Shown: positions 1-18,700 of the stretch, in pieces
Position numbering within the stretch: the first letter of the stretch is position 1
Layout: every line of letters starts with the position of its first letter
DNA from: Cafeteria roenbergensis
Taxonomy: Eukaryota > Sar > Bigyra > Bicosoecida > Cafeteriaceae
Assembly (NCBI GenBank): GCA_008330645.1
Contig: VLTN01000134.1
Location: 1-21,129 of the forward strand
DNA length: 21,129 nucleotides
Direction of reading: 5' to 3'
Made by a program: the position numbers and the translations under genes
The notes under the pieces: model-generated
Told to the model about the DNA's origin: nothing
The model's database searches: none
Seen by the model: only the letters and a program-made list of their open reading frames with translations

Positions 1-1326
1 ACAAACACTGGAGCTGCGACTCTTGTGCAGACGTGGCACTCGTTTCTGCTCGGGGCTTGCCGGGACGGAAAAGTATTTCTCGGTTCCGGGCTGGCCAGGC
101 ACACTCTCACAAGCTCGGAGGGATCCGTCCTTGTGGCGAAATGGCCCTCGATGACAGGGGCTCTCGTTGTCGCCCCGTGCCGCTAGCGCGAGTGGGCTGA
201 CTGGCGGCGAGATTCTCGTCGTCCCTCCCGGTCGGCAACACGCTCCTGCCGTGCTCTGCTCGGCAGTCATGTCGCTCGGAACGGCGTGAAACATTGCTTT
301 GCTCCGGCCGCTCTGCGCTCTCGCGTGCTGAGCGCTACGGGCTCGGCCCGAGGGGGGCAAGCGGAGCAGCGACGGACGTGGACCACGAAAGGCTCGGAGG
401 GCAGCGAGAGCGAAAGCGACGAGGAGGGCGCTGCCGGCGATGATCCGCACGGCGGCGCGGCCGCGCTGTCGCGCCGAGCGGGCTGCCACTGCGGCTGCGG
501 CGCGCGATGCGGCTGCGACCTTTGCCGACGGCCCGGGCCTGCGAACGCGCCGCCGGCCGTGGCCAGCAGGCGGCAGAGCTGTGGCGCGGCACGCCCTACG
601 CTGTGGTGCGCGTCGGCCGGCGCTGCGTGCGTGTGTGGAAGGCAGTCCTCCCCACCGGCTGGGAGGAGGGATGCGGGCATCACTGCAGCAGCGGCGCCGG
701 CTGAGCGACGCGGCAGCATGGCCAGGCCTCAGCATCAACTGCGCATGGGGGGAAGGTCGGTAGGGACGCAGGTGCCGCCGCCGCGCCGGCCCTGGTCACG
801 GCCGCCGGCGCCTCCGCAGGCGGCCCCGCCCGGCGGCAGGCGCAGCCGCCGGAGCTGGGCCGCGCGTCGTCATGCCGGGCCCAGGCCCGCCTGGGCGCAG
901 GCGGGCAGCGGGAGGGCGTCCGCGCAGCGGAGAGGCGCGGGGTCGGACGACGACGCGGAGGCCTGGCGCCGCCGCTCCTCCTCGCCCCACCGTCGCTCCC
1001 AGTGGAGGCTGCTTGGTGGGCGGACCCTTCCGAGCTGCCTCGGCCCGCCCGGCGCGGGACAGGCCCCGCACCTGTGGTTGGTCGCGCTCTTGGCCGCTCA
1101 GGCGGTTCGCCGCGGCAGTGTTCGAACCCTCCCCGCTGCGGCGGGCCTGGAGGAGGGAGGCACTTCCAGCCTCCGCAGGGCAGGGCGCGCGCTCTGCGAT
1201 GGAGGCCCGGGCTCACGCCGGGGCGGCGTCGGAGGCGTCGGCCGTGGCCCGCTGACGCCGCCGGCGACGCCGCGCTGCCGCGCCGCAGCGGCCGCCGAGT
1301 CTGGGCTGAGGGTGCCGCTTGCCGCC
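1..1326. other. left flank, no confidently assignable gene
   Basis: No complete gene can be assigned here. The + strand has one frame open without a stop from 286 past this region, but it begins at a GTG. Several stretches have coding-like composition with GC-rich third positions, each in a different frame: an acidic Ser/Glu/Asp run at about 385-440, an Ala-rich stretch at about 470-540, and a stretch at 560-704 reading ELWRGTPYAVVRVGRR that ends in a stop. An ATG at 718 has a good context (GCAGCATGGCC) and shares the frame of the downstream start at 1327, so the neighbouring gene could begin earlier. The first 285 bases hold nothing I recognise. Confidence 0.35.
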
Positions 1327-1330
1327 ATGG
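1321..1330 (+). promoter_or_regulatory. Kozak-type translation start context
   Basis: The bases GCCGCCATGG match the optimal eukaryotic start consensus exactly, with the ATG at 1327-1329. This decided the start chosen for the + strand gene. An ATG at 718 in the same frame is the alternative. Confidence 0.5.
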
Positions 1331-3125
1331 ATCTTGCTGCGCGGCGGCCGCTTGTCTCGCCCACAACCACGCACTCCGCGTACACCGTTCGCCGGAAGCA
1401 GGGCGGCGCCAGTCGTCCCGCGACTCGGGCGGCGGGGCAGGCCGCGCTCATGGGCGCCAAGCTGCGGCGCGGAGGGGCGAGCGCAAGCTCCGGCGGCAGC
1501 ATAGCCGCCACTTTGCCGGATGGGAGCCCCTTGTCCGGCGGTGCTGCCCGCGTCTTCATGCTGCGCGTCCAGCACAGAGGGCGAGCTCATGACCGCAGAG
1601 ACTGCCGACGCGGACAGCTCCGTGCTGCAGGCCGCCCAGGCTGCGAGCAGGGCAACGGCGGAGGCGGCGGGCGTTCCGGCCCCGGCCAGGCCCTTCGGCT
1701 TGCGCCGCTCCGACGACCGCATTCGCCGCATCCCCTTCGCCACCGGCAAGCCGGGCTTCGCCGAGGCTTGCGCCTCCTTCACCAAGCTGCTGGCCTGCGA
1801 GGATGCCGGCGAGTGGGACGCCCATTTGTCCGTTGTGGCGGAGGCGGTCCTCGCAAGGGGACCCGGCGACGGCGGGGCCAGCGATGGCGGCCGCGCGATG
1901 GCCGGCCCTCGCGCCGGCCCCGAGTCGAGCGCGCGCGGGGCACCGGGCGCGGCTCCCGAATCCTCAATGGGGCGGGCGCCCTCCTCGGCCACCGAGGCCT
2001 CCGACTCCGGGATGGACCGGGTGGCCCAGGAGAGCAGGGGCTTTGCGCGGCTGGGAAGCCACCAGTCCGAGTCCAGCGACGACGAGGACGGCGCCTCCGG
2101 CGCCTCCGGTGCCGACGACGACGAGGACGCTGCGCTGGCGCCGGCAGCCGACGAGGGAGCTGGCGCGGCGGAGAAGGAGGCGCGCGCAGAGCGCGAGAGG
2201 CAGCGGCGCCGCGCCAAGCGGGCACGGCGCCGGGACAACGCCCGGGCCGCCAAGAGCAGGGCGGCTGCCGCCGAGGCAGGGACGGCGGGCGCACCGGCCG
2301 TGGCAGAGACGGCGGACAGCGCGGAACCGACGCCAGCAGCGTCGAAGGAGTCGGTGCTGTCGCTCGCCCCGGCGGACGTGGTGGCGAAGGCCAGGGTGGC
2401 GGTGCTCCGAGCGCGCACGGAAGTCGACGCCGTCGCAGCGAGCCTGGCGGGGACGCTCCGGGTCCCGCAGCACATCCTCGCCAGCGCCATCGAGGCCCGC
2501 GGGGGAGGCGAGGCGTCCACGGTCATCGGCCCGGCGGAGGTGCGCTCCAGGTGCCAGCTGGCCACGGACATGGTGGCCGCCGGGCTCGAGGCGGGCCAGC
2601 TGCTTGAGATCCTGGGGTGGAGCGACGCTGCGGCCGTGGCCGTCGCGGCGGCGGACGACCCGTCGGCCTGGGCGTCGCTTCGGTTCACGGCCCGCGGCGA
2701 CGCGGAAGAGGCCGCGGTGGCGGCTGCTGTGGCTGCGGCTCTGCCAGGAGCGCGACCCGGCGCGTCGCGGCCGGAGACTGCAGCTGCCTGCCCAAGCGAT
2801 TCCCCAGCAATGCGCCCGGCAGCTGCTGCGGAAGCCGGCACACCTGCAAACGGCGGCGGTGGCGGCTGGCGATGCGACGCCCCCGCCTGCAGCTGTTGCC
2901 CGTCAGGACTCAGGGTCCAGCGTGAGGAGCGCAGTGCTTGCCGCCACCCTCTCCGCCACGGCCGCTGACGTTGCGAGGTGCCTATCGCCCGCACCCGGCC
3001 CGCGTGCAACCCAGGCGCAGGCGCCCGCGAGTGTTCCGGGTGCGTCGTCGGCCGAGGCCAGCGTCGAGGCCGGGGGAGAGCAGGAGGACGCCGACTCTGC
3101 GTTGGGCGCGTGCGTGTGTGCGTGA
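1327..3125 (+). CDS. Ala-rich protein of unknown function with acidic tract and basic NLS-like cluster (frame-disrupted)
   Basis: I do not recognise a family. From the ATG at 1327 the frame runs to about 1570 (MDLAARRPLVSPTTTHSAY onward). Convincing protein sequence then continues in a second frame from about 1575 (EGELMTAETADADSS) to about 2855, and in a third frame to the TGA at 3123-3125. With two single-base corrections it would be roughly 600 residues. Visible are a segment at 1700-1850 with FGLRRSDDRIRR and FAEACASFTKLLACEDAGEW, a Ser/Asp/Glu tract at 2065-2135 (SESSDDEDGAS), and an Arg/Lys-rich cluster at 2185-2270 (RERQRRRAKRARRR), which suggests a bipartite nuclear signal or nucleic-acid contact. 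A mostly helical Ala/Val/Leu region follows. An ATG at 1589 is an alternative start if the first frame is not coding. No operon logic applies; the next gene is convergent. A nuclear role is inference from composition only. Confidence 0.55.
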
Positions 3126-3304
3126 AGCATGGAAGCTGTGCCGACGCCACGAGTTTTCGTGCCTTTGTGCGCGCTGGGATCTGGCTGCTGGCCCTCTCGA
3201 TCAGCAAGGGGCGGTGCTCGTGTATGTTCGACGTGCACACCACGTTGTGCATCTGATTCTCGCCTCAGCAACGAGGCCCAAGCCGCCACGCAAGAGCAAT
3301 TCAA
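3126..3304. other. convergent intergenic spacer (shared 3' ends)
   Basis: Only 179 bases separate the TGA of the + strand gene from the TGA of the - strand gene, so both 3' untranslated regions must fit or overlap here. The sequence is somewhat less GC-rich than the coding regions. I see no canonical AATAAA on either strand. Confidence 0.6.
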
Positions 3305-5550
3305 TCAAGCAAAGCTGGCCACGCAACGCTGCCGTTGCGCCCAGCTCTCCCCATGTCCAGACGCAACTGACACAGCGCGGGCAATCTTGTGCGCGGCATC
3401 GATCGAAGACCGGAGCTGCTGCAGGCCCAGCTCACGGCCGGCCACACTGATGGCCGCGGACAGCTGCGGGATGTCGTCGAGCACCACCTGGGCGAACTGC
3501 TCCCGCTGGACAAGGCGCGTTTGAACGCGGACCGTGAACGACAGCTCCACGAGGCTGCCGAGGTCGCCCAAGGCGGTGCCGTTCAGTTCCAGGGCGGGCT
3601 CGCCGGCCAGGCTCGCGAGACCGGTGGGAGTGTGCAAAGGCCGCAGAGTCGCGTTCTGCGCATCGATGTCGACCCACACCTCCTGGCGGCTGAGCCAGCC
3701 GGAGGTCTCCGCCATCCAAGGCTCCGCCGCAGTAAACGGAGTGGCGGCGCTCGTGGAGAGGCCGATTCGCTCCTTCAAGAGGGTCGCGACCATGCTCAGG
3801 AAGATGCTGAGTCGGCCTGGCGACGGGGACTGCAGCGAGAACCGGGCAGTAACCTTGACCAGCACCGTGGACAGCTCGCCGTGGGGCCAGCGGGGCCACC
3901 CCGGTTCGCTTCGGTCGCATGCGAAGTGCCGAATCTGAACCGCGAGTTGGCGAGTGCCGATCTGCGCAGGGGGACTGCCACGGGCGAAAGGTGCATTGCT
4001 TCCGTCGCCGGGGTGCTGCCCTCGCTGGTCTGACCCACTGACGCGGGGAGCGGGTCGAGGCCGCTCGACAGCCCGGGAGCGACCAGCTCCGACTCGACAG
4101 GGCCGGTCCTGACGAACGAGAGCGGCTTCGCCGCGGCTGCGACGACCGGGGTCAGCGCCGACATGGCCGTCTCGCCCAGCTCACTCCGGTAGTATCGCAA
4201 GGGCAGCATCCCGCGCCAGGCGCTGCCGTCGAGCACCAGCGTGCCAGCCAGCGAGGTGGGCGCCTGCTGCAGAGCGGGCCCGGGGCCTGACTGAGCCCCG
4301 GGGCGGGGCCGTCCGCGCTGCTGGCATTTGCCTGCTCCGGCGCCGCGCCCAGGTGGCGGTCTCGCGCAACTCGCACGAGCCTTCGGAGCATGATGCGGCT
4401 GTGAAGCGTGGAGCGGAGGGCCGCCTCGCTGATGGTGCCGGCCACCGAGTCCAGAACAGCCTCTGGCACGGGCTCGGTCGGGAGGAGGTGCACGCCCACG
4501 ATGGCGATCGACGAGGTGGGCAAGGTGCGCCCATCGAAGGACGCCTCCTGGGCGAGGGAGAGATGGTGGGCCCGTGCCGCGGCCCTGTCCTTGTCCGCCA
4601 GCGAGGCGTTCGCGGGCGCCAAGGCGACGCCTGCGACGGGAACGCCCCCAGCCATTGCCTGCAGAGTCGACAGCCTCTCGCTGTCAGCAGCTGAGCCCTC
4701 GCCGGTAGCGTTCCAGCCCAGCGCAGAGAGCGCGTCCGCCTCTTGCGGGCCAGGGCGTACGGCATGAAGGCGCGAGCGCAAGCCGGGCGGGAGGTTGCGT
4801 TGAGCGCCAGCGTGTCCGCCGTGAGAAGTGAGTTGGCTCCGGCCTTCCAGCGGAGGCGGGCAAGCCCCGTGGCCTCGTCGCCAGCCGCCACGCCCGCCGC
4901 TGCGCCAGCCAGGAAGTCCGATGCAGTGCCGCGGATCGGGCTTCCGACGCCGCACACGAGGGCAGAGCGGCCGCGCTCCGACGCTTGTGCGGCACCAGGA
5001 AGGCGCGGCAGGGGCACGGCACTCAGCCGCACGGCCCCGCTCAGCGACCTGCAGACAACAGACACGCCGGTGCACTCTGCCTGGCCGCTCAGCGATGCGT
5101 TGGGCGATGAGCACGACCCGGCCGAGACTGGGACCTCCAGGGCCAGGTCCGGAAGGCCGCTGAGTCCGGCGTCCGGCACCGGACCAATTTTCCCGGCACA
5201 GAAGCCGCACGGGGCCAGGCGCACTGGCGCGGGCTGGCTGCTGATGGGGTAGTTGTCGTAGCTGTACGTGGAGACGACTGGCATGGTCAGCGGGGCACCA
5301 GGGAGGCCGCTCGTGGCGACGGCGAAGTCCGCGTCTCCGACGGTTGGCAGCACGCCACCCCGTGAGACGGCCGCCTTGAGCGCAGCGTGCCCAACGGACG
5401 CAATGTGCCCGAATGTGGCCGCGGCTGGAATGGCACCGACGCGGTCCTCGACCGTGAGCACTTGCTGCGCTGGATCGGCACCGCTGCCTGCCATGCCACG
5501 CGTGTCGCATCGCCGGACAGCGTCGAAATCGTAGAGCATGACGAGCGCCG
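3305..5550 (-). other. unrecognised C-terminal extracellular region of the propeller protein
   Basis: About 740 residues with no family I can name. The first part (5550-4750) has scattered Cys pairs and N-glycosylation sequons (for example CSSPNASLSG). The middle (4740-4280) reads ADALSALGWNATGEGSA and ASFDGRTLPTSSIAIVGVHL. The last part (3870-3307) contains VWVDIDAQNATLRPLH, ALELNGTALGDLGSLVELSF and a helical end with DDIPQLSAAISVAGRELGL. Alternating hydrophobic residues suggest further beta-rich domains. No membrane anchor is visible at the end. Confidence 0.55.
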
Positions 5551-8500
5551 GCGGCAGGCTGAGCGGCGAGAAGCTCTTGGATTCCAGGGCCGAGACGTCT
5601 GTTGCGGACAGCGGCAGCGACCACCCCATCAAATCGTCAACGTGGCCCAAGAAGGAGCTTGATGCGGAGCCGTTGCCGGGGCTGGCACCGATGAGTGGCG
5701 GGACGACCCGGTTGAGCACCGAGTTTGACGTGTCGATGTGCAGCGTGGCGAGCGGCCACGTGTCGCTGAGGTACCCGGACACGTAGAGCTTGACGTCCGT
5801 CGCCGAGCGGGGAAAAGGCAACCGTCGTCCAGCTGCTCTCAGCGGCGAAGCCCTGGGTGGAATCCATGCTGAATCGCTCCCAGGCCAGGGACCCGTTGGC
5901 GAGCCGCTCCACGCTGGAGATGTGCAGAAAGGGACGCAACGACGGTGACAGGCCAACAGTCAGCATCGACGCCTTGTCGCCGCTGCTCAGAAGCGACAGA
6001 GCGGGGTGGCCTCGCTGACAGCGTTGCTGAAGACTACGCCACCGGCACCACCGTTCGAGTCTCCGATCGGCTTCACTAGGAACCGGATTGTAGCCAGGTT
6101 GGCGGCCGTCGTCATGCCAGACGTGGTGAAGAAGGCGGCAGGCTGGCTTGGGGAGCTTCGGAAAGTCACGAAAGTCTCGCGGCCTGGCGTCCACTGCTCC
6201 CGCATGCGGAGCGTCGGGACCAAGCTGGCCGGAAGCACAGCAGCTTGTGGAACCGGCGACGCCGACGCTGAGGGAGTTGCCGATTGTGATGGAGTCGTTG
6301 TCGGCGACGACGACACGGACGGGCTCGGCGAAACCGACGGGGTGGCCGAGGTCGAAGCGCTCGAGGTCGGTGTGGCCGACGGCGTAGCCGAAATCGAAGC
6401 GGTCGGGGTGGGCGTGGCCGATGGAGAGGCCGATGCAGTTGCCGACGGAGACTGGGTAGACGTTGGCGTTGCAGAAGACGACGCTCCCAGGGTCACGAGA
6501 GGTGGGCTGTATGGGGTGGAGGACGGCGAAGCCTCGGCGTTAGGAGAGCAGCATGGGGTCGGCGTACTTGGCGATGTCGAGCAGTTGCCCCCGCTGCAGT
6601 TCATCGGCGGGCACGCCCCTCCGCTGCAGTTCATCGGCGGGCACGCCCCTCCGCTGCAGTTCATCGGCGGGCACGCCCCCCCGCTGCAGTTCATCGGCGG
6701 GCACGCCCCTCCGCTGCAGTTCATCGGCGGGCACGCCCCTCCGCTGCAGTTCATCGGCGGGCACGCCCCCCCGCTGCAGTTCATCGGCGGGCACGCCCCT
6801 CCGCTGCAGTTCATCGGCGGGCACGCCCCTCCGCTGCAGTTCATCGGCGGGCACGCCCCTCCGCTGCAGTTCATCGGCGGGCACGCCCCCCCGCTGCAGT
6901 TCATCGGCGGGCACGCCCCTCCGCTGCAGTTCATCGGCGGGCACGCCCCTCCGCTGCAGTTCATCGGCGGGCACGCCCCCCCGCTGCAGTTCATCGGCGG
7001 GCACGCCCCTCCGCTGCAGTTCATCGGCGGGCACGCCCCCCCGCTGCAGTTCATCGGCGGGCACGCCCCCCCGCTGCAGTTCATCGGCGGGCACGCCCCC
7101 CCGCTGCAGTTCATCGGCGGGCACGCCCCCCCGCTGCAGTTCATCGGCGGGCACGCCCCCCCGCTGCAGTTCATCGGCGGGCACGCCCCCCCGCTGCAGT
7201 TCATCGGCGGGCACGCCCCTCCGCTGCAGTTCATCGGCGGGCACGCCCCCCCGCTGCAGTTCATCGGCGGGCACGCCCCCCCGCTGCAGTTCATCGGCGG
7301 GCACGCCCCCCCGCTGCAGTTCATCGGCGGGCACGCCCCTCCGCTGCAGTTCATCGGCGGGCACGCCCCTCCGCTGCAGTTCATCGGCGGGCACGCCCCC
7401 CCGCTGCAGTTCATCGGCGGGCACGCCCCTCCGCTGCAGTTCATCGGCGGGCACGCCCCTCCGCTGCAGTTCATCGGCGGGCACGCCCCCCCGCTGCAGT
7501 TCATCGGCGGGCACGCCCCCCCGCTGCAGTTCATCGGCGGGCACGCCCCCCCGCTGCAGTTCATCGGCGGGCACGCCCCCCCGCTGCAGTTCATCGGCGG
7601 GCACGCCCCCCCGCTGCAGTTCATCGGCGGGCACGCCCCCCCGCTGCAGTTCATCGGCGGGCACGCCCCTCCGCTGCAGTTCATGGGCGGGCACGCCCCC
7701 CCCGCTGCAGTTCATCGGCGGGCACGCCCCCCCGCTGCAGTTCATCGGCGGGCACGCCCCCCCGCTGCAGTTCATCGGCGGGCAGGCACCGTCAGAGCAG
7801 TTCGATCCGGCCGGAGATCTCGTGCGGTTGTCCAGCGCAAGGACCATAACAGCGTCCTGGTCGGCATGGTCTCGGAACGCCGTCGCCACGAGGTTTCCCG
7901 CAAGGACTGGTCTGGCAAGCACCGCGCCAAGCAGCATGCCGCCTGTTGTTGCGTTTGCCGGCAGCCCGCTTGTGCCGGCCTCAATGGAGCCGGTGAGCTT
8001 GGCGCCCTCGTAGAGGTCCACCGAGAAGACTTTGATGCTGCCTCCGCCTGGGGCGCTGGGAGAGCCAACAAGCAGGTCGTTAATCGCCCCGTCGCCGTCG
8101 ACGTCGATATCGCTCCAACCCATGGGCAATGTCGGCCCGGCGAGCGGCTCTGAAAGGCTCCACGAGGCGGTCTCCCAGGCGCTGCCAGATTGCGATATGC
8201 TGATCACCGACACGGACGAATTTTGCGGCCAGGCTGGGCACGACGCCACGGCGGCCTCCGAGGTCCAAGGGTCGCTGTCAAGGTCCGCTGCCGTCCACGC
8301 CACAGAGCATCCGTACCGCTGCCCGGTCACAGGCGTGGAGGAGGCAGACAGCGTCTGGTCTGACACGAACTGCCCGAAGGCGTCGACCGACAACAGATGC
8401 ACGGCGCCTGCGTGCGTGACGTTTCCGGGCGCAGTCGCACTGGGCACACCAACAAGGATCTCCGCCGTCAACACATTGCCGTCGACATCGCGGGCCATGA

Positions 8501-9047
8501 CTGCCAGTGCGACTGCAGTGCCTGAGTCATCGCCGGCAGCCCCGAGGTTGTGGCTTCTGATGCTTCTCACTCCCCCGGTATCATTGAAAACCACGGAGAA
8601 GACAAAGACATCGCCGCTGTGGCTTTGTGGAGCCGCAACCAGCATCTGCGCCATAAAGCCATCGCCGTCCAGGTCCCGCGGAATCCACGCAAGCACGGAC
8701 CCGAACCCGAGTGCCGCCCCGTCCCCGGGCTCAATGACCGCCAGCGTCGACGCACTGCCGTTGGAACCGAGCGACAGGATCACCACCGCGCCCTGGCTGC
8801 CCCGGCCGGGGGCGCCTACGGCAAGCTCGTTCAGCTTGGAGTCGCCGTTCAAGTCCTCGCCGATCCACGCGAGCGCCGAGCCGAACGCGTCACCAGGCGA
8901 GCCTGAGGGGTCGATGATGCGATGCTGCCGAATGGGTAAGCCTCCCGCGTCCACGACGGCCACAGTGATGGCGCCGGCATGCTCGGCGAGGTGGGGGGCA
9001 AGTTTCGAGCCAATCCATTGGCAGCGAGTCGGGGGCGCCTCGGCGCC
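3305..9047 (-). CDS. large secreted/cell-surface protein: FG-GAP propeller, decapeptide repeat array, Ser/Thr linker, LamG-like domain
   Basis: This reads as one multidomain extracellular protein, about 1,900 residues. Order from the N terminus: seven FG-GAP-type blades (about 9047-7830), an array of about 40 MNCSGGACPP decapeptides (7794-6588), a Ser/Thr/Pro linker (about 6580-6250), a LamG-like domain (about 6215-5555) and an unrecognised C-terminal part ending at the TGA at 3307-3305. The frame is open upstream only to a TGA at 9050-9048 and holds no ATG before the first blade. The true start and signal peptide must therefore lie in an upstream exon, or behind an indel, and were not found. 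The reading frame changes at about 7700 (an extra C in a C run), 6000, 5810, 4745, 4275 and 3895. Protein features continue across each point, so single-base indels are likelier than separate genes. No membrane segment is visible. The propeller resembles integrin alpha, but no integrin tail motif is present. Confidence 0.8.
5555..6215 (-). other. LamG / concanavalin-A-like domain (split over three frames)
   Basis: Segments read in order as strands of a LamG-type jelly roll: FVTFRSSPSQPAAFFTT, NLATIRFLVKPIGD, GGVVFSNAV, then in the next frame KASMLTVGLSPSLRPFLHIS, LANGSLAWERFS and SSWTTVAFSP, then in the third frame SATDVKLYVSGYLSDT, LATLHIDTSN and FLGHVDDLMGWSLPLSATDV. The WTTVAF, VKLYVSG and GHVDDLMGWSLPLSATD motifs are the hallmarks (compare the family pattern of W-x-H-V-A, then L-Y-V-D-G, then G-x-I-D-E/D with a following L-S-x-x-E/D). 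Frame changes at about 6000 and 5810 fall inside the domain, so they cannot be gene boundaries. Confidence 0.65.
6250..6580 (-). other. Ser/Thr/Pro/Ala-rich mucin-like linker
   Basis: About 110 residues dominated by Ser, Thr, Pro and Ala, with quasi-repeats such as SATPSATPT, SASTSATPS and SVSPSPSVSSSP. This composition is typical of extended, O-glycosylated stalks in secreted protist and algal proteins. It lies between the decapeptide array and the LamG-like domain and would be a plausible substrate region for the O-mannosyltransferase encoded next door; that link is inference. Confidence 0.85.
6588..7794 (-). repeat. 30-bp tandem repeat encoding about 40 MNCSGGACPP decapeptides
   Basis: A perfect 30-bp period (TTCATCGGCGGG... 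on +, one PstI-type CTGCAG per unit) is translated on the - strand as MNCSGGACPP. There are 39 canonical units, one diverged unit at the upstream end (SNCSDGACPP) and a final MNCSGGNCS that leads into the linker. Almost the only variation is one base, C or T on the + strand, which switches Gly codons GGG and GGA and is therefore silent. A second silent change occurs at 7685 (ATCGG to ATGGG on +). Unit 37 has eight C (7696-7703) instead of seven, which shifts the frame. Each unit carries one N-X-S sequon and two Cys. Near-perfect identity implies recent expansion or homogenisation. Confidence 0.97.
7830..9047 (-). other. seven-bladed FG-GAP (integrin-alpha-like) beta-propeller region
   Basis: Seven repeats can be aligned by eye. 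Five carry Asp-rich calcium-loop-like motifs: GEDLNGDSKLNELAVGAP, PRDLDGDGFMAQMLVAAP, ARDVDGNVLTAEILVGVP, AADLDSDPWTSEA and DIDVDGDGAINDLLVGSP. Each is followed by a strand such as GAVVILSL, GDVFVFSVV or GSIKVFSV. A partial first blade (GSKLAPHLAEHAGAITVAVV) and a last, loop-less blade (NLVATAFRDHADQDAVMVLAL) complete the set. FG-GAP propellers of this kind bind divalent cations and mediate extracellular protein or glycan contacts. The whole 1.2 kb is a single uninterrupted frame. Confidence 0.85.
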
Positions 9048-9745
9048 TCAGTCCAACATGGCGGCTCTCACAGCGCATTGGTCCCGCGAAAGGATGTGCC
9101 CGGCGCGAGCGGGCAGCAGCTGCCGCAGATGTGCTGCGGTGGAAAGCCGGGAGGGGCACCGCGAGGACGGGCAGCAATCGTGCCGGTCAGGCAGTCGAAC
9201 TGGCCAGGAGCTGGAGGCCAGCGCTGCTTCCAACGCAGGCGCCTCTGCGATGGCAGCAAGCCCGCACGAGATGCCCCTGCCTCCACGCCGCCCTTCCGAC
9301 GGGCGCGGGCAGTCCCGCACTCATTGCAAGACGCTTTTCGGCCACGCCGCAGTCAGGGACGAGCGCGGCTCGGGTTTGCTGGCTGCAACTGAGCGACGGC
9401 TGCGCGTTGGCAACGGCAGGCCTGCCGCTTGCTCAGGCCTGCTGGACTCTCCTCCCGATGCTCCTCCCAACTTCTGGGCGACTTCTTCAGAGGCCGCACG
9501 CCCAAGGCTGCGCGCTTCTGACCTCACCTGTTCGCCGGCTTGTGGGTCGCGCGGGTTGAGGGCGTGTGTCTCAATGCGTCCCCCCGGCAGAGCCGCAAGG
9601 CAAGGCCTGTGCGTGAGTGGTTGTTCAACCGGCGCGAGCAACACGCGCAGGCTCTTCGCCACTCTCTTCGCAAGCCGGACTCTCGCCGGCCGGGTACAGT
9701 TGTCCTCGCCGGCCAGCCCGGCTCACCGAGGCCCCGGTCGGAAAA
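9048..9745. other. spacer between mannosyltransferase and propeller gene
   Basis: It holds the 3' end of the mannosyltransferase transcript and the 5' end of the propeller gene. A missing first exon with start codon and signal peptide should lie here. The ATG at 9324 (- strand) opens only a 47-codon frame without a signal-peptide-like core, so I could not identify the exon. Nothing else is recognised. Confidence 0.4.
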
Positions 9746-11913
9746 TCAGCTCCAGCCGTCGGTCCAGCGCAGGGCTGCGTGGTAGTCTCGAGACATCGGG
9801 ATGCCGTACACCCAAGGGGCGAACAGAAGCCAGACCCCGACGACGATGGCGCTGAGGACTTGCACGACGAAGCCGACCTGGTTTCCGGACACCTTGTCCA
9901 CGAGGATTGCCGTGGCGAGCTCGGCGTAGAGCAGCGCGGGCATGTAGTGGTAGACGAACGCGGCACGGGACACGAGGATGTAGGGGATGAGGTTGATGAG
10001 CCACACCAGGCACGTGTACGTCAGCGTCGACGAGAAGGCGCGCATCCAGTTGGGGAAGAAGGTGTCTGGGCCGGAGCGGTAGCGGCAGTACGTGAGCAAG
10101 ACCGCGAAGCCGCCAAGCACCCCGATGAGCACGAGCCAGATGACTGCTGGGTTGCCGACGAGGTAGATGAGCTGGTTGTCCTTGCCGATGTCCTTGGAGT
10201 AGTAGAGCACGCCGCGGGCGTTGATGGGCCAGGTCCACCACTTGGACATCCAGTGGTGAGGGGTGTCGATGCGGGCGTTGGCCGAGAGCATCTCCTGGTT
10301 GAGCTGGACGAAGGAGGTCAGGAAGAAGGGCTTGGGGGCGTTGGGGTCGTAGTTCGTGTTGTTGATGATGGTCCTCTGGAACTCCACCTGCGGCAGGAGC
10401 GTTGCGGCGAGCTCGAGAGAAACAAGCAACCAATCAAAGTTTCGCAGCGGGAGGGAGCGGGAGGCACGGGCGCGCGGCTGCGAGGGGCGAGCAACTCAGA
10501 GGCACACCACACGCGACGGGAGCGACTGGCCTCGGCGCCATGAGGACGCGTAACGAGAGCTCACGCGCATGAACGCGTCGCCGTCGCCGGTGAAGGGGAG
10601 CAGAGCGAAATGGATGAAGAACCACAGGGTGTAGACGAACAGGGCGCTGGCGCCCATGACGAGGAGGTCGGGCAGCGGCGCTGCTTCGCGCAGGAAGAAG
10701 AGGCCGAAGAAGGACTCGATGGCAATCATGCCAGGGGTCGCGAGGTTGGTCCACTTGATGGAGACGGCGCAGCCGCAGACGGTGCCTAGAACGACGGCCC
10801 AAACCATGCGCTCAGCGATGGTCATGATAGCAGGGGGGGTGGCGCGCTCGTGCTTGGGGCGGCCGATGCCGTATGCGGCGGCCTCGACGGCAACGGGGTT
10901 CTGGACCTCGCTGGTTCCGAGGTCGTCGCCGTCGCTGGTGCTCCGGCCCGGGCGGGCGATGATGGTGAACGGGGGCGGAACCCACACACCGAGGCTGCCG
11001 TAGCCGCGGTTGATGACATCGTCGCTGTCGACAGAGCCGCTGCCCGTCTTGCTGACGTCACGGGCCGAGGCCTTGACACGGGCAAGAGAGCGACCCAGGA
11101 GCAGCACTGCGTCCTCGTGCTTGCGGCGGCGCTCCCAGTAGCAGAGAGCCACCCAGAGGGAGAGCGCGGCGAAGAAGATGAGCTGGGAGTCGACGAGGAT
11201 GAGGCGGCTCTCGATCAGGTTGAGGTTGTCGGTGAGGAAGAGGAGCGCCCCAAAGGATGCCGCGACCACGCGGCAGCCCATGCGACGGCAGATGGAGTAC
11301 AGGAGGGGCACGGTGAGGCACCCGAACAGAGCTGCGAGGGGGGGGAGACGGGGGCCGGGGGGGAGAACTAGACCATGGATCGGCGGGCCCAGCTGCACAA
11401 GGGCGAAGCCGCAATGAGCGGCCCTGACGGAGGCACGCGCGCACACTCCTGGCGCGCGCGTTTCTCACCCGCAGTGGCACGGAGCGGCATGAAGTTGCAG
11501 TCCTCGCCGTACACGTTGCTGATCTCGGCGTAGTCGCACGCGTCCGGGTTGTAGCCGGCGATGCGGGACACCACGTAGAACACCAGCTTGCCCAGCGGGG
11601 GATGGATATCAAACAGGTAGGTGCCCCTGTTGTACTGGTTGGTGAAGCGGCCAAAGTGGTGCTCATCGAAGACGACGCCTCGAGGAGAATCGAGGCGGTA
11701 AAAGCGAGTGAGGACGCCGAGCGCAAACAGCAGGACGTGCATGGTCGGCCACTCTGGGAGGCCCCAAAACAGCTCGGAGGTCTCCTCCTGCGCATCGTCT
11801 GCGCTCTCTGGCAGGCGCGGGCTTGCCGCAGAGGGCGCGGCGTCGTCGCCAACGACCTCAGCGCCGGCGCCCTTGCGCGTGCGCGCCGTCCCGCGGTGCT
11901 GAACGGCCGACAT
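9746..11913 (-). CDS. dolichyl-phosphate-mannose protein mannosyltransferase (GT39/PMT family), MIR-less
   Basis: The enzyme transfers mannose from dolichyl-phosphate-mannose to Ser/Thr of secretory proteins at the ER membrane. Three exons, 11913-11469, 11331-10565 and 10387-9746, join in frame into 617 residues. The start is the ATG at 11913; a GTG 54 bases upstream is not needed. Family hallmarks: first membrane helix at about 57-73, the catalytic-loop motif VVFDEHHFG with Asp83-Glu84, FDIHPPLGK at 101-109, IESRLILVDSQLIFF near 188-202, and SIKWTNLATPG before another helix. Exon 3 encodes the C-terminal PMT domain (HHWMSKWWTWPINARGVLYY) and at least four membrane helices. Unlike fungal PMTs and animal POMTs it has no MIR domain between the two membrane blocks; only about 45 residues lie between the intron and that C-terminal motif. 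It also has a hydrophilic insert of about 85-100 residues after WVALCYWERRRK. No frameshift is present. It is transcribed toward the propeller gene on the same strand. Confidence 0.93.
10388..10564 (-). other. intron 2 of the mannosyltransferase gene
   Basis: A 177-base phase-0 intron. The donor is ATGCGC|GTGAGC (first intron base 10564) and the acceptor CTGCCGCAG|GTGGAG (last intron base 10388). The join gives GDGDAFMR-VEFQRTI, matching the family pattern G-D-x-F-M-x-x-E-F-Q, so the boundaries are well supported. Confidence 0.9.
11332..11468 (-). other. intron 1 of the mannosyltransferase gene
   Basis: A 137-base phase-1 intron. The donor reads GCGG|GTGAGA (first intron base 11468) and the acceptor is a pyrimidine-rich tract ending CTCGCAG (last base 11332). 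Splicing joins RATA to ALFGCLTVPLLY, restoring the conserved segment before the second helix block. Confidence 0.88.
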
Positions 11914-12779
11914 GGCAGGCGATCCGATCCTGCGCCCAGGCGACCATTGGAACCGAAAGCGGGGCACAAGGCGCTTCGCACAGGGCCGCAGACGAGGACA
12001 ATCACAGCCGGCGGCGGACTCTGATTTACGCCGAATGACACCCTGGCCAAGCCTTCAAGGCCCGCCGGCGCAGCACCCATGGCAGACTGTGACCACAGCC
12101 ACGGCGTGCCGCGCGCCAGGCTAGGTGCTCGGGCCAGCCCGGCCAGAGGGCGCAAGGCTGCCGCGGCAACGCCAGACTCATCGAGCATTGCAGGGGAGCG
12201 CGCTGGACCGACCGCGCTCCCGGCACGCGCGGCCCGCAGCCATGCCCTTCGCCTGCTCTGCGCAAATCACTGACACTCACCGCTGCAACTCGACGGCCTT
12301 GCCGCGCGAACCCGGATCAGTGGATGATTTGGGGGCTGCTGCGCTCCACGTTGTCAGGGAGATCGCTGGCAGAGCTTCCGCTTGGCTGCGGGCGCCAGCT
12401 GAAGCCGCAGGGCAGGTGCGGCGCGCACGGCGGCGAGATTCGAGGGCCCAGCCTGCGGAACCCTGCTGGAAGGAGCTGCCTGCGCTTGGGCCGCCAAAGC
12501 CGCTGCACCAAGCGTGCATCGCGAAAGTGGCAAAATTGCATGCTCTGAATGAAACATTCCCGATGCGCTTTGCCGCCGAAACGCGACGAGCCCGAAAATA
12601 CGGCTGAGCAAAGGTGGGACGCATAGCCGCGAGACCACAAGACAAGCGAATCGTTGCAACTACTGTCAACAACGCACACAAGACGCGCAGGCGACCCAAG
12701 GCTGCTTTGATTCTCGGCGGCACAAAATGCGCCGCCAGTGCATCACTTCGGCTCGGCTCTCAGCCACGCGCCAGCGCGA
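11914..12779. other. spacer between giant gene 3' end and mannosyltransferase start
   Basis: About 870 bases with no convincing gene. The stretch 12530-12740 is clearly less GC-rich than the surroundings, as expected of untranslated or promoter sequence. A - strand frame from a GTG at 12723 begins with a short hydrophobic run (LCALLTVVATI) but degenerates into Ser/Ala/Arg-rich sequence, so I do not call it. The promoter and 5' leader of the mannosyltransferase should lie here; no motif was recognised. Confidence 0.5.
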
Positions 12780-15700
12780 TCACCTGCAACGCCGCCGTCG
12801 CCTCCAGGGCCAGTTTTGGGCAACGCCAAGTGTGTCTGCCGGGTCCTGAGGGTCAGAACAACCGTTGCAAACCCAACGCGTCCAGATGCCCACCAGGCGC
12901 TCGCCACCGCAGCAGTCCGCTGCCACCGTGAACGCAAGCCCCAGCGCCCAGCCGCTGAGTAGCATGATCTTCGCCGCATCGGCGGGCAGCCCCACGAGCA
13001 GGAGGAGCAGCAGCAGGTTCGGCCACGCGGCGAGCAGGAGCAGGCTGCCGCGCCACAAGTTGACGCGATCCACAAGGCAGGGCCGCCGCGTGAACAGGTA
13101 CACAGAGAGAACGACGCTGATCCCAATGGCCACGGCGCACGGCACTGCGAGCTCGTCCTCACGCGGGAAGAAGACCATCGCCGCGGAGAGCAGCAGCTTG
13201 GCCTGCGAAGCCGCCACCGTCCACCCGAGCGAGTACTTGAGGTCCAGCGAGGGGCTGGCGTACGCCATGGACGGCGAAATGAACGTAGCGAGCGGGTAGT
13301 AGAGCAGGCCGCTGACGATGGCCAGGGCCACCCACGCGAGGTGGAAGCCACGCCAGCACTGGATGGTGGGGTCCTGGTACAGCGGGGTGCCCTCGGCGGT
13401 GTAGTTGCACGCCAGCATGCCGAGCAGCGTCTTGATGATGAAGAAGAACCCAATGCCGCCGGCCAGCGACAGAAGCTGCATGTACACGCCTTCGAAGCTC
13501 AGCAGAGGGGCAGGGCGGCGCCTGCCGTCGACGCCCGTCACTGTGCCCAGCTTCCCCTCGCGCGCGCGCCGCACGCCCCGCAGGCTGAGCAGCGGGAACA
13601 CCAGCGCCACGGCGGCGCACGCCCAGAAGAGCTGCTTGAACAGCGTCACCGGCGAAGCGCCGTCCCCAAACTCCACCGCCGTTGCCGCCGCAGTGGCTGC
13701 GGTGCTGGTGGTGTTCCCGGACGCGCCCCGGAGACGCCTGCAGCGGACAGGAGCTCGCCGAGGCTGCTCTCGAACACGATGCCTTGGATGGCCACCGAAA
13801 TGGTCTCGGAGGAGGGCAGGTCCCAAAGCCCCAGCGCGAAGCCGCGGAAGGCGACAGCGCCCACGGTCCCGAACTCGATCACGGGCTCCAGCACGCCCAT
13901 GATATTGCCAAACGACCATGAGGACACCTGCAGCTGCACCTTGGCGCCCAGCTCCTCGGAATCGTCACGCGAGGGCAGGCTTGCCTTGCTGCTGCCCTTG
14001 CGGGCGTGGCCAGGCCTGGCCTCAGCATCAGGTGGCGCGCCCGCATCGGCCGCGGTGGGCAGACGGAACCTGCGCTTGCTTGCCGCCCTGGAGCTGCCGG
14101 GGCCGCCCTTTGACCCCGGCGTCAGCCTCTGCTGCCCGCCGGCGCCGCCCGCCACAACCACGAGCGAGGACCGCCGTCCCCGGTGGCCCGGGCCGCGGCT
14201 GGGTCGAGTGTCTGTGGGAGGACCCGATGCCGCCGGGGGGTGGCTCTCCACATCTTCTAGGGTCATTGACGGGACTGGCGGGCCGCCCTGTGGCCCGTCG
14301 TCTTGCAGCTCTAGCCGCCTGGCCACGACGGGCTTCCCGAGAAGTGTGGCTCCCACCAGCAGCGCGGCCTGCCGCCACCGCATGCCGCCTAGCCACTGTG
14401 CGCGGGACCGCACGGTCACGCCCGTGAGGTCGGCTCCTTGGCCTGCGTCGTTTACCGAGCAGGGCCGACATGCCCGTGTTGAGCCTCGGGAGCTGCTTCG
14501 CGGGGGCGCGTTGCGCCACCGCCCGTGCTGCCGGCGCACCCGCTGCTGTGGCCGCCGCGAGTGCGGAGAGCTTGGCACTGCCACTCTCTCCCGCCCCCGC
14601 GGCAGATGCGGCGAGCGCACCTGCGCCGGCGATGCCGGCGCCCTCTTCTGTGCCCTCGGGGTCGGGCGCGTACCCGGCAGCGAGCCGTCGCTCTCGCCTC
14701 CGCTTGGCTGCGCTGTGGTACGTCTCGTGCTGGTTCCTGAGCCGCCGCAGCGCCTCCTCCGGGCTCAGGATGTCCTCTTCGGCGAGGGGCGGAACCAGCT
14801 CCGGAGGCAGCGCGCCCTCCAGCGCGAGGAGGAACGCAGCGGGCAGCGGGTTCGCCGGGTCCTCCCGCCGCTGTCCGACACAGCAGCAAGCTCGGGACCC
14901 TTGGGCGGAGGGGGCGTGCGGGGGCGCGAGCGGATGGCCACAAGCCGCAGCCGCTCCGCCTCCAAGGCGGCCTTTTGCGCCCTGGAGAGCGACTCGGCGC
15001 GGATGCGGTCAGAAGCCGCCTCGGCCTCCTCGGCGAGCTTGCGTCGGCGAAGGTCCTCCTCCTCTTTCGCCCTGCGCAGCCGCCGAGCCTCGGCCTCCTC
15101 CTCGTGCTTGCGCCGCTCCTCCTCCTCGCGCTGCTCCCGCTCTGCCTTGCGACGCGCCACCTCCGCTCGCCTGGCCTCCTCGTCGGCCAGCCGCTTGGCC
15201 TGCTGCAGCCGCCTGTCCTCCTCGAGCGCCTCGAGCCTGGCCTGAGCGCGGGCGAGCGCCTGCCTGGCTCGCGCAGCCTCTGCCTCCGCCTGCTCCTTGG
15301 AAAGGTCCTCCCTCCCCATGCCCATCGCTCTGGCCATGCGCCCAAAGACGCTCGACCGCCTCCGGCTCTGCGCCACCATCTCCGCCATCTCCGGGTCGTC
15401 CTCCCGTCGAACGTGACTCCAGCCGCAACAGCAGACGCAATTGCCTCGTCTGCTGCCTTGCGGGCAGCCTCGAGCTCCTCCTGGGCGACCCGCGTGGCGG
15501 CCTCCTCGGCTCTGGCAGCGGCGGCGTCGCGTTCGGCTGCCTCGCGCAACGCGCGAGCCGCCTCCTCGGCCTCCCTGGCCGCCTCTTCCTTGGCGGCCGC
15601 CGCCCGCGCCCTCTCGGCCTCCTTCGCCGCGCAAGATCCTCTCGTCGCGCGGCCTCCTGCCGGGCAGCATCCGCTGCGGCATGCGCCGCAGCAGCCGCTG

Positions 15701-18700
15701 CGGCGGCGCCCGTCGCTGATGCCGTGGTGCCGGGCAGCGCAACTCCGCCACGAGCCGCCCCGGTGCCCCGACCGCGCCCCTCCGGCCCCTCGCGGCCGGA
15801 CGACCCGCTGGCTCCGTTGTCATCCTCCGCAAAACTGTGCGCGCTGAACCTGGCCAGGCCGCCCTCGGCGTCGCCTCCGGCCTCGCCCAGCTCGTCAGAG
15901 AGCGCAGCCACCTCGTCCTTGAGCAACGACGCGCTCGAGCTGGCCACGCTCTGCAACACGTTCGCCCGCTCGGCCTCCTCCAGCTCGGCCCGCTCCAGCT
16001 CGGCCTGATCCCGCCTGCGCTGCGCCTCCGCCTCTGCCTCCGTCTGAATCTGCATCGCCTCCTCCATCCGGATGCGCCGCTCCTCGGCTTCAAGAAACCG
16101 CTGCCTCCGCGGTGGCCCAGGCCTCCTCCCGGTCCGCCTCCTTTGCCGCTGGGTTGAGAGTGGAGCTCAGCCATGATGCCAGCTCCGACAGTGACGACCC
16201 AATGCTTTGGCCAAGCTTGCCGGCGCTTGCCACAGTACCGCGCATGCAGCGCTGAGACCCGCGGACCATGGCCGCGCCAGCGCCCCAACTGGCGGCCAGC
16301 GGCAGCCACAAGCACGCTCCGATGGGCCCCCAGCACGCCGCCGCACCGCGGCTCAGCCCGGAGCAGCAGCCAGGCTTGGCATGTCTGGCTGGGCGCGGAG
16401 TCGGACCGCCAGCGACACGGCCGGTCGGTGCTGCGCCTCCTGCTCCTGCGCCTACTCCTGCTCCTGCTCCCGCCGCGCCCTCGTCCCCCGAGTCAACGCT
16501 CGCCCCGCTGAGGCTGCGGCTTCGGTTGGAGGACGTGCCGCGGAGGCTGCTAGCCGGTCGCCCGGGCTTTCCGGCGTCAGCGCCGGGGGACCCGCTTGCA
16601 GGCGGCACCGGCACTGCAACCTCGTCCCCGCCTCCTCCCACCCCTGCGGCGGGGTCTGCTGCCGGCTGCCCGCCGCCAGCCTGCCAGCTCGCTGTCTCGC
16701 TCCCTCCGACGGGAGTCCCCCACGCCTGCGCGGCCGACACCGGAACCACCGTGCCGTCCTGGAGCCCTCTGGCTGCAAGGTCAGCTCGCCTTGCCGCGTC
16801 GACCTCGCCGGGAGCCTCCCATCCAATGTCAGACTCTGAATCGGAGTCTTCTGGAGGGGGTGCAATGCGCACTTGCCGGTGCTCCGGGGACGAGCGAGGC
16901 GAAGCGGCCCCCCCCGCGCTGAGCAGAGCGCGCGACGCAGCGAGCGCCGCAGCATCTGCAGCAGCCCGGGCTGCCTCCGTCGACAGCGTACCCGCATGCC
17001 CCGAGGGCTCCCCCGGGCGGCGGCCGCCCTGCGAGCTGTCCTCGCTGTCCTCGCTGCTCTCCGGCTCTGCCGGAGGACGTCCCGCCGTCTCCCGAGCTCG
17101 TTGCTCGATCGCGGCCCGAGCCCTCTCGGTGCGGGGAGCAACCATGCCCGCGCCGGCCCCTGCGCCACCAGTACGCGACCGTTTCTGCGTCCCAGTCCGC
17201 CAGCTCGAGGCCGCCCTTGAGCGCGGGAGCAATCCTCGCCACGGCCGCAGCTCGAGTGGCAGCCAGCCCCGCCCTTGCCCTCGCGATTGCCGCCTCGGCC
17301 TCCAGTCGGCGCTGCCGCTCTTGCTCCTCGGCAGCCTGGCGATGTTCCGCAATCGCCTCGACGATGGCCGCTACGTCCAGCCGCGGGCCCCGACGGCCGC
17401 CAAGCGGCTTCCGCTCCGCTGCGCCAGCACAGCAAACGGGTGGGCCCCAAAGCCGGTATCGCTTTGCCAGCCAGGCGCCAGTCTTGCACGCTCGGCCTTG
17501 GCGGTCTCGGCGAGCAGCGCGTCGGTGATGCTTGGCACCGCCTTGGCCGCCATCTCCACGATGAAGGCGTGTGCTCCCATGACTCGCGGCGTGAACAGGT
17601 GCTTGTGCAGCAGCCGGGAGACGAAGGGCGCAACGCTTCGCCGCCACCTCCCTAACTCGGACAAGGCCAGCGGCAGATGCTGGTCGGACGGTTGCTCCTC
17701 CGCCCACCAGTCGCTTGGCACGGCGCCGCCACCGCCCCACGCACCGCCGCCCGCAGAGCCGCCCGACGTGGAAGCCTGGTCGGTCGGCTCAGCCGGCGCC
17801 AAGCCCGTCGCGTCGCCCAACCTGGCGAAGCTGGCCCTGCCATGGCACCCGCCAGCCGCAATCTGGCGAAGCCGCCCCCCATGCTGCCAGAGGCCAGGGC
17901 CCCAAAGCTGTGGCCTGCGACGGGCAGAGCCAGCTCCCCCGCGAAAGCGCCCGAGCTGGAATGCGGCGCGCCGTCTGGGTCGGCGATGAGCCCAGGCAAA
18001 GGCGTGCGAGACGGCCGCCTGGCTGACACGGACTGCCTGGCGACCCGCCGGCGCAAACCGGCGCTGGTCGGCCTCGACGAGGGCGACTCCTCGTCGCCTG
18101 CGCCGGGCTGGGCGTCGGGCGCCAATTCCGCGCTGCCCGCTGCTCGGCGGGCCGGGGACCCAGGCCTGCCACGGCGGCCGCCTTGTCCTCAAGCCAGCGG
18201 CAAAACACCCAGAGGTCGACCTGCTTCGCGCCCCGCGCAGAGAGCGCCCTTGGGCCGTCAAGCATCGACCACTCGGGTCGGAGTGCAGCCCACACCAGTT
18301 GGCCAGCTCACGCTCGGCCTCCGATGCCCGTCCCCGCCCTGTACCCTGGGAGACTTGCGCGTCGCGTCCCGGGGCCCAAGCTCAGTCGCGAGGATCGTCT
18401 TCCGCGCGGTGTCGTGACCTGGGCTGGCCTTTGCCATGCCGGCAGCGAGCAGGAGGCGGCGGAAGTCCCCGCTCCGCATTACCCTGACGACAACACGCTC
18501 GTCCAGCTCTCCGGGGAGAGGGCCTCGCCCACCATGGAGCGCCGACGGCTCCGCGCGTCCACGCGGTCCTTCGACTTGTGCCGCGCTCCCCTGGCGCCTG
18601 CTCGGACCCCGCGTGACGAACTGGCCCGCGTCGGTGTGGCGACGGCAGCCGAAGACGCAGCGCGCGCAGCTGCAGCTGCAGCTGCAGCCGCCGCCGCCGC

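Follow-up and report, generated by a model that had tools for sequence, protein, structure and literature searches.

What does a tandem array of some 40 near-identical 30-bp units do in the genome of the flagellate Cafeteria roenbergensis: does it belong to a protein, and if so, what would it contribute? We addressed this for contig C134, all 21,129 bases of which make up the stretch analysed here (the window), and searched it against the genome of 36,303,456 bases in 167 contigs. The answer that we favour, and hold on balance to be probable, is that a 30-bp minisatellite has expanded in frame within a gene, where it would encode a Cys-rich spacer of variable length; the protein would be adhesin-like and either secreted or at the cell surface.

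The repeat unit and its variants

The array occupies positions 6588–7790 of the window on the minus strand and comprises about 40 units of 30 bp, as judged from TRF, the unit list, unit spacing and counts. TRF reported 39.9 copies at 6588–7784 (period 30, 98% matches, 0% indels, score 2266). Translated from the minus strand, the unit gives MNCSGGACPP, with one N-C-S sequon and two Cys, so placed that a Cys recurs every five residues (C-SGGA-C-PPMN). Copy number, match rate and translation together bear out the first-pass annotation, which had described about 40 tandem MNCSGGACPP units. Successive units are spaced by 30 bp in 38 of 39 cases and by 31 bp in one. The two M-frame pieces across 6588–7800 hold 37 + 3 N-x-S sequons and 74 + 7 Cys, and by reading one extra sequon is cut at each edge of the array, in agreement with the earlier figures of about 42 sequons and about 80 Cys. 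Genome-wide, a 22-base piece of the unit had 40 forward and 64 reverse matches (reversed control pattern, 0 and 0).

Variation among the units is sparse. At the GGA/GGG site, 39 window units carry A in 16 cases and G in 23, a silent difference; a second silent variant, CCG/CCC, marks a single unit and is present in both the window and a second copy of the array on contig C2. The remaining two mismatches belong to a diverged edge unit, SNCSDGACPP. The earlier statement that the only recurring base difference is silent therefore holds for GGA/GGG and needs amending for the CCC-marked unit. The purifying constraint on the peptide that had been read from it fails as an argument, because there are just two variant sites, and of the 90 substitutions possible in the unit 19 leave the peptide unchanged anyway, as do 9 of the 30 transitions. 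Nor does the openness of the array frame prove anything by itself, because the unit is stop-free in five of its six frames; the flanks have to decide.

Reading frame and flanking domains

The flanks can be read on C2, to which window positions 1–7790 align at C2:331348–323509 (98.0%) and positions 8991–21007 at C2:321034–309006 (99.2%). On this copy the frame of a propeller domain continues directly into SNCSDGACPP MNCSGGACPP..., and the final units continue in frame into NCSTSPSTPT..., through a LamG domain to a stop after C2:328003; the last units, the linker and LamG lie within an open frame of 1183 residues. The codons read at the two edges of the C2 array have their starts separated by 2139 bp, which is divisible by three, so the net frame is kept across it. 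On the evidence of both C2 flanks, the M-frame (MNCSGGACPP) is the predicted coding frame. The window has a GC content of 0.65–0.76 per kb, and GC3 in the M-frame is higher than GC at positions 1 and 2 in the propeller (0.75), LamG (0.80) and the C terminus (0.825). The linker departs from this: in the M-frame its GC3 is 0.655, below position 2 at 0.885. GC3 does not fix the strand, because an equal score is obtained in the opposite-strand mirror frame, which contains stops.

On the N-terminal side of the array lies an FG-GAP or integrin-alpha-like propeller (7791–9029, minus strand; protein match at C134:7758–9029), of which the window holds blades 2 to 7, counted by eye. FG-GAP propellers have about seven blades and Ca-binding DxDxDG-type loops, and by eye the C2 translation has seven blade-like stretches and several such loops. 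Pfam marked one stretch of the C2 protein as FG-GAP (PF01839; 27.6 bits, E 2.7e-6, cut-off 22.1), and phmmer against PDB returned a weak match to integrin alpha-M (E 0.0013). The propeller is divergent, since a genome-wide PF01839 search at E ≤ 0.001 gave 22 matches that do not include it.

On the other side, a mucin-like S/T/P-rich linker of 115 residues (6248–6587, minus strand; translated composition 50% S/T, 20% P) leads to a LamG or concanavalin A-like domain (PF13385). The position of this domain in the window, approximately 5590–5885 on the minus strand, was carried over from C2 by hand, and the frame here is broken at 6010 and 5809. On the C2 protein the match is barely over the cut-off of 27.6 (28.2 bits, E 2.4e-6); the genome-wide PF13385 search gave 56 matches, including C2:325415–325717 at 32.2 bits. 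With PF01839 and PF13385 both over their cut-offs, the propeller on one side of the array and the LamG-like domain on the other that had been recognized by eye are supported. The C-terminal part, about 700 residues (3305–5589, minus strand), is broken at 4747, 4282 and 3969 in the window and open on C2; no Pfam family was assigned to it, and no relatives of the 3' half were found in the viral contig collection.

Cys are concentrated in the array, with 2 per 10 residues inside it, 2 in the 477 residues before it and 13 in the 1094 after it. A 19-residue hydropathy scan found no hydrophobic stretch after the array (maximum 1.43), and in the propeller and post-array parts nothing exceeded 1.6 apart from an N-terminal stretch. 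This stretch is encoded on C2 within 261 bp that are absent from the window at position 8991 (alignment, C2 translation and hydropathy). The missing piece holds the signal-peptide-like GLAAAVLVAAALAATVAGG, with a hydropathy of 2.02, and the first blade-like stretch. Directly before the hydrophobic stretch there is no in-frame ATG on C2; one of 12 predicted models, with a 122-bp GT-AG intron and a small first exon, would supply one. One further single base differs between window and C2 at the 8991 junction. By reading, GTGC stands at both edges of the 261-bp piece on C2. The absence suggests either a short-homology deletion or an assembly join.

Just upstream of the array gene, on the same strand, is a gene for a protein O-mannosyltransferase (PMT; 9746–11967, minus strand; PF16192 at 3.9e-40, and PF02366), in three ORF pieces apparently separated by introns. 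A genome search with PF16192 gave two matches, this locus and its C2 copy. The S/T/P-rich linker could be O-glycosylated, and the PMT upstream (PMT_4TMC) is a suggestive but weak link to such a role. An ORF at 12780–13919 (minus strand) is rich in hydrophobic stretches by eye, has no Pfam match and is perhaps a multi-pass membrane protein. Searched against Pfam, ten window ORFs gave one match, bVLRF1, at E 0.0092 and below its cut-off. Elsewhere in the genome (C2:1303076–1309147, C1:800995, C83:86543–95362 and others), FG-GAP or LamG matches lie in open frames of about 8,000–11,000 residues, which may encode giant extracellular proteins.

The unit among known and genomic repeats

The first-pass annotation had named no described repeat family for MNCSGGACPP, and no accepted match emerged from the libraries that we tried. 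Pfam returned only Extensin_1 (PF02095; 32.3 bits, E 1.1e-7) for the array, under the cut-off of 105; we read this match as Pro composition and do not accept an Extensin identity. NCBIfam had no match to the array, and a PDB search with the unit gave three matches at chance level (E 0.38–0.56). With Ser codons limited to AGY in both degenerate DNA patterns, there were 0 matches in the viral contig collection (degenerate 26-base pattern, and likewise the exact 22-base pattern) and 0 in the genome contig collection, which holds prokaryotes only (degenerate 35-base pattern). A literature search for MNCSGGACPP found none. We also considered and set aside a pentapeptide-repeat beta-helix, given Gly/Pro at the core positions, and metallothionein-type metal binding, given that the unit has no C-x-C.

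Searched as protein against the genome, array units gave at least 111 matches (150 of 181 candidates scored), on contigs C134, C2, C6, C13, C90, C5, C57, C83, C10, C101, C23 and C41. Among the matches listed, the MNCSGGACPP unit was not found beyond C134 and its C2 copy. Arrays elsewhere were rejected as relatives, as the 14 open frames that we read at 12 other places were different GC-rich repeats. The most similar in appearance, a few DACPPEAVGS-type decapeptides in a row on C101, has ACPP in common with the unit and is without N-C-S. Long and mutually similar arrays reading LRCSGGRQP, a dispersed minisatellite, were seen at C2:22000–31999 and on C6, C13 and C90. Further GC-rich tandem arrays (NRRRGRTCPW, PRRTDGQTR, EMRCS) were seen at C23:211000–220000 and on C83, C57 and C101, the last with the short DACPPEAVGS run.

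This setting raises the possibility that the array is a tolerated selfish minisatellite, in a position where any open flexible spacer would be harmless, so that its Cys and sequons would have no special function. Near-identical units seen at one locus and its copy among the matches listed, the different GC-rich repeats at 12 other places, a copy number that differs between copies (39.9 versus 73.9) and two variant sites that leave no measurable constraint would all be expected of such an element. However, the C2 array is in frame at both edges, and 80 to 150 useless extra Cys should make a secreted protein costly to fold. We regard this explanation as less likely than not, though it is the likeliest of the alternatives.

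Two array lengths in one assembly

The two copies of the array differ in length within the same assembly, with 39.9 units in the window and 73.9 on C2 (TRF). Base differences between the window and C2 are sparse in mid-contig and crowded at the window ends. Positions 1–1600 and 17000–21007 show dozens of small indels relative to C2 and have the look of unpolished long reads. The window is a low-quality duplicate of part of C2, probably the second allele, and the pattern is consistent with a contig duplicated in the assembly of a diploid genome. For the assembly of C. roenbergensis BVI, the portion of the report available names Redundans for removing allelic contigs and Racon for polishing with PacBio and then Illumina reads (PMC6972860). 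Two primers that the same paper gives for Cafeteria genes each match the present genome exactly and at a single site; the genus is well supported, and BVI is the probable strain.

The C2 array is less regular, with unit spacings of 30 bp in 45 of 67 cases. A wrap-around model alignment placed 15 inserted and 41 deleted bases in it, cut edges included, and 32 of the 41 deletions fall inside G or C runs. Probably these indels, like the frame breaks of the window, are PacBio errors that polishing with short reads left standing; true breaks are possible.

Are 40 and 74 copies two alleles, or artefacts of assembly? The order of A and G units aligns unconvincingly between the copies, the gapped score being reached by 72 of 1000 shuffles and the ungapped score by 209 of 1000, and tandem repeats are a recognized source of assembly error, as the excerpted text of one study states (PMC6868369). 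Against artefacts, the edge pattern and the CCC-marked unit are common to both copies, and arrays of 1.2–2.2 kb can be spanned by long reads. We consider artefacts unlikely. An allelic difference is probable but not proven, because the A/G unit order is not convincingly matched between the arrays.

N-glycosylation versus disulfide bonding

In each N-C-S sequon of the array the Cys lies inside the sequon. The hemopexin study, in the part available, reports an N-C-S site that is under-glycosylated, with a disulfide through that Cys, native or not, restricting the site, and states that STT3B requires MagT1 or TUSC3 to glycosylate sites close to a Cys (PMC8645230). Full sequon occupancy and full disulfide bonding of the array would therefore compete.

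In the Cafeteria genome, STT3 was found at one locus. Two OST3_OST6 matches, the only ones in a six-frame, exon-wise search that can miss a split gene, scored 29.2 and 28 bits (cut-off 27). They span profile positions 46–148 of 294, the thioredoxin part of the family alone. Of 14 control genomes, 8 also gave matches to this search, one of them above the cut-off. By reading, the two matches, at C53:183857–187733, are WCGHCK thioredoxin domains in a KDEL-ending protein, hence PDI-like, and we do not accept them as OST3/OST6. Given the competition at N-C-S and the PDI-like nature of these matches, partial N-glycosylation of the array is the better guess, and it is doubtful that all sequons could be glycosylated and all Cys disulfide-bonded at once.

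These observations bear on the structure first proposed for the array, a disulfide-ladder rod in which nearly all units would carry an N-glycan. The composition of the unit (one N-C-S, two Cys), the STT3 gene and the position of the array between two extracellular-type domains are what such a rod would predict; the hemopexin precedent (PMC8645230, available in part) and the PDI-like OST3_OST6 matches count against it, and we judge it improbable.

Frame breaks in the window copy

Six 1-bp differences relative to C2 break the frame in the window, at 3969, 4282, 4747, 5809 and 6010 and in a run of eight C in unit 37 (7696–7703, minus strand), as seen in the unit lists of both copies and the translations; the marked unit on C2 has seven C. 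Because unit 37 carries eight C, the window propeller is out of frame with most of the array: its frame reads about three M-frame units, then GVPADELQR-type units, and reaches a stop near 6540. The array and the propeller are in frame at the C2 edges and out of frame in the window; an array shifted against the propeller in all alleles, which by the first-pass annotation would refute its reading, is not what the C2 array edges show. In neither assembled copy is there an unbroken single ORF, the window having its frame breaks and C2 small indels in the array; outside the array, C2 is open throughout the propeller and the 3' half. Errors are likely in the window copy, given that dozens of small indels separate the ends of this duplicate contig from C2. 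That the gene has decayed or the array is untranslated, with the window copy a null allele, would account for these breaks and for the absent signal-peptide-like stretch, but it sits poorly with a C2 copy open on both sides of the array and with the indel-rich ends of a duplicate contig, and we think it as improbable as the glycan-coated rod.

A model for the array

Returning to an in-frame-expanded spacer, the predicted protein would begin with a probable signal peptide and an FG-GAP propeller of about seven blade-like repeats, continue with 40 to 74 MNCSGGACPP units, and end with the mucin-like S/T/P-rich linker, the LamG domain and about 700 residues outside any assigned family. Near-identical units would be prone to unequal exchange or slippage, which would shift the copy number, and because unit number would change in this way, the distance between the two candidate binding domains may be genetically adjustable. 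In the secretory pathway the array Cys, one every five residues, would oxidize to local or intermolecular disulfides, giving either a compact Gly/Pro-rich spacer or a cross-linked matrix. Glycosylation at N-C-S would probably be partial, through competition with these disulfides.

A bolder version, which we put forward as a long shot, holds that each unit is either glycosylated at Asn or disulfide-locked at Cys, and that slippage in a G7 run adds a frame switch. If so, ER redox and copy number would together determine how long and how stiff a eukaryotic 'periscope' stalk from propeller to LamG is, and how it is coated with glycans. The G7 run of GGG units would switch some alleles to the open GVPADELQR frame, which ends before LamG, and the window copy would end its protein there by this route.

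Cafeteria is a bicosoecid flagellate grazer, and the name Cafeteria burkhardae is assigned to the bicosoecid stramenopiles. Because such grazers live by surface contact, a stalk that could adjust the distance between two candidate binding domains would be of interest. With a Cys in every sequon, the array would also offer a natural, repeated test of N-glycosylation against disulfide formation. Many other GC-rich minisatellites are present in this genome, and the array exemplifies one that has been brought into a coding frame. In a narrow literature search we found no description of length-variable repeat stalks in bicosoecid flagellates, and a search combining bicosoecid with FG-GAP found none.

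Comparison with known systems

The closest published parallel in unit design that we found is KAP1, whose decapeptide QTSCCQPXXX occurs as three or five repeats in goats through a 60-bp deletion, in a family that cross-links keratins by disulfides, according to the accessible part of the source (PMC8143586). Both systems have a Cys-rich, ten-residue tandem unit of 30 bp, with copy-number alleles in KAP1 and a family that forms disulfide cross-links. KAP1 proteins, however, belong to the fibres of goats and sheep, and their three or five units have Cys side by side, whereas the Cafeteria array has 40–74 units, a Cys every five residues, N-C-S sequons and extracellular-type flanks. Neither Pfam nor NCBIfam linked the array to a KAP family, its unit is without adjacent Cys, and the likeness is one of design.

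In architecture the array recalls the Periscope Proteins of bacteria, described in the available portion of the source as stalks with adhesion roles whose high-identity tandem repeats vary in number within populations (PMC9704523). The Cafeteria repeats are likewise near-identical, and number 39.9 and 73.9 in two copies within one assembly. Unlike the bacterial proteins, as far as they are described there, which are surface attached and built of folded repeat domains, the Cafeteria array is made of a eukaryotic ten-residue unit, in a protein for which no anchor was found.

Integrin alpha chains share the FG-GAP match and the weak similarity to integrin alpha-M (E 0.0013). The Cafeteria protein differs from them in having a repeat array and LamG after the propeller; neither integrin leg domains nor a transmembrane helix was found in that part, where Pfam marks LamG only and hydropathy stays at or below 1.43.

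Yeast flocculins are a further precedent, as surface adhesins in which an intragenic minisatellite encodes a Ser/Thr-rich stalk. Their repeats are Ser/Thr-rich and not Cys-rich, unlike the Cafeteria unit. The kind of element described here, an intragenic and probably length-variable repeat spacer in an adhesin-like protein, is thus already known; what sets the Cafeteria array apart is a unit that combines Cys and sequon.
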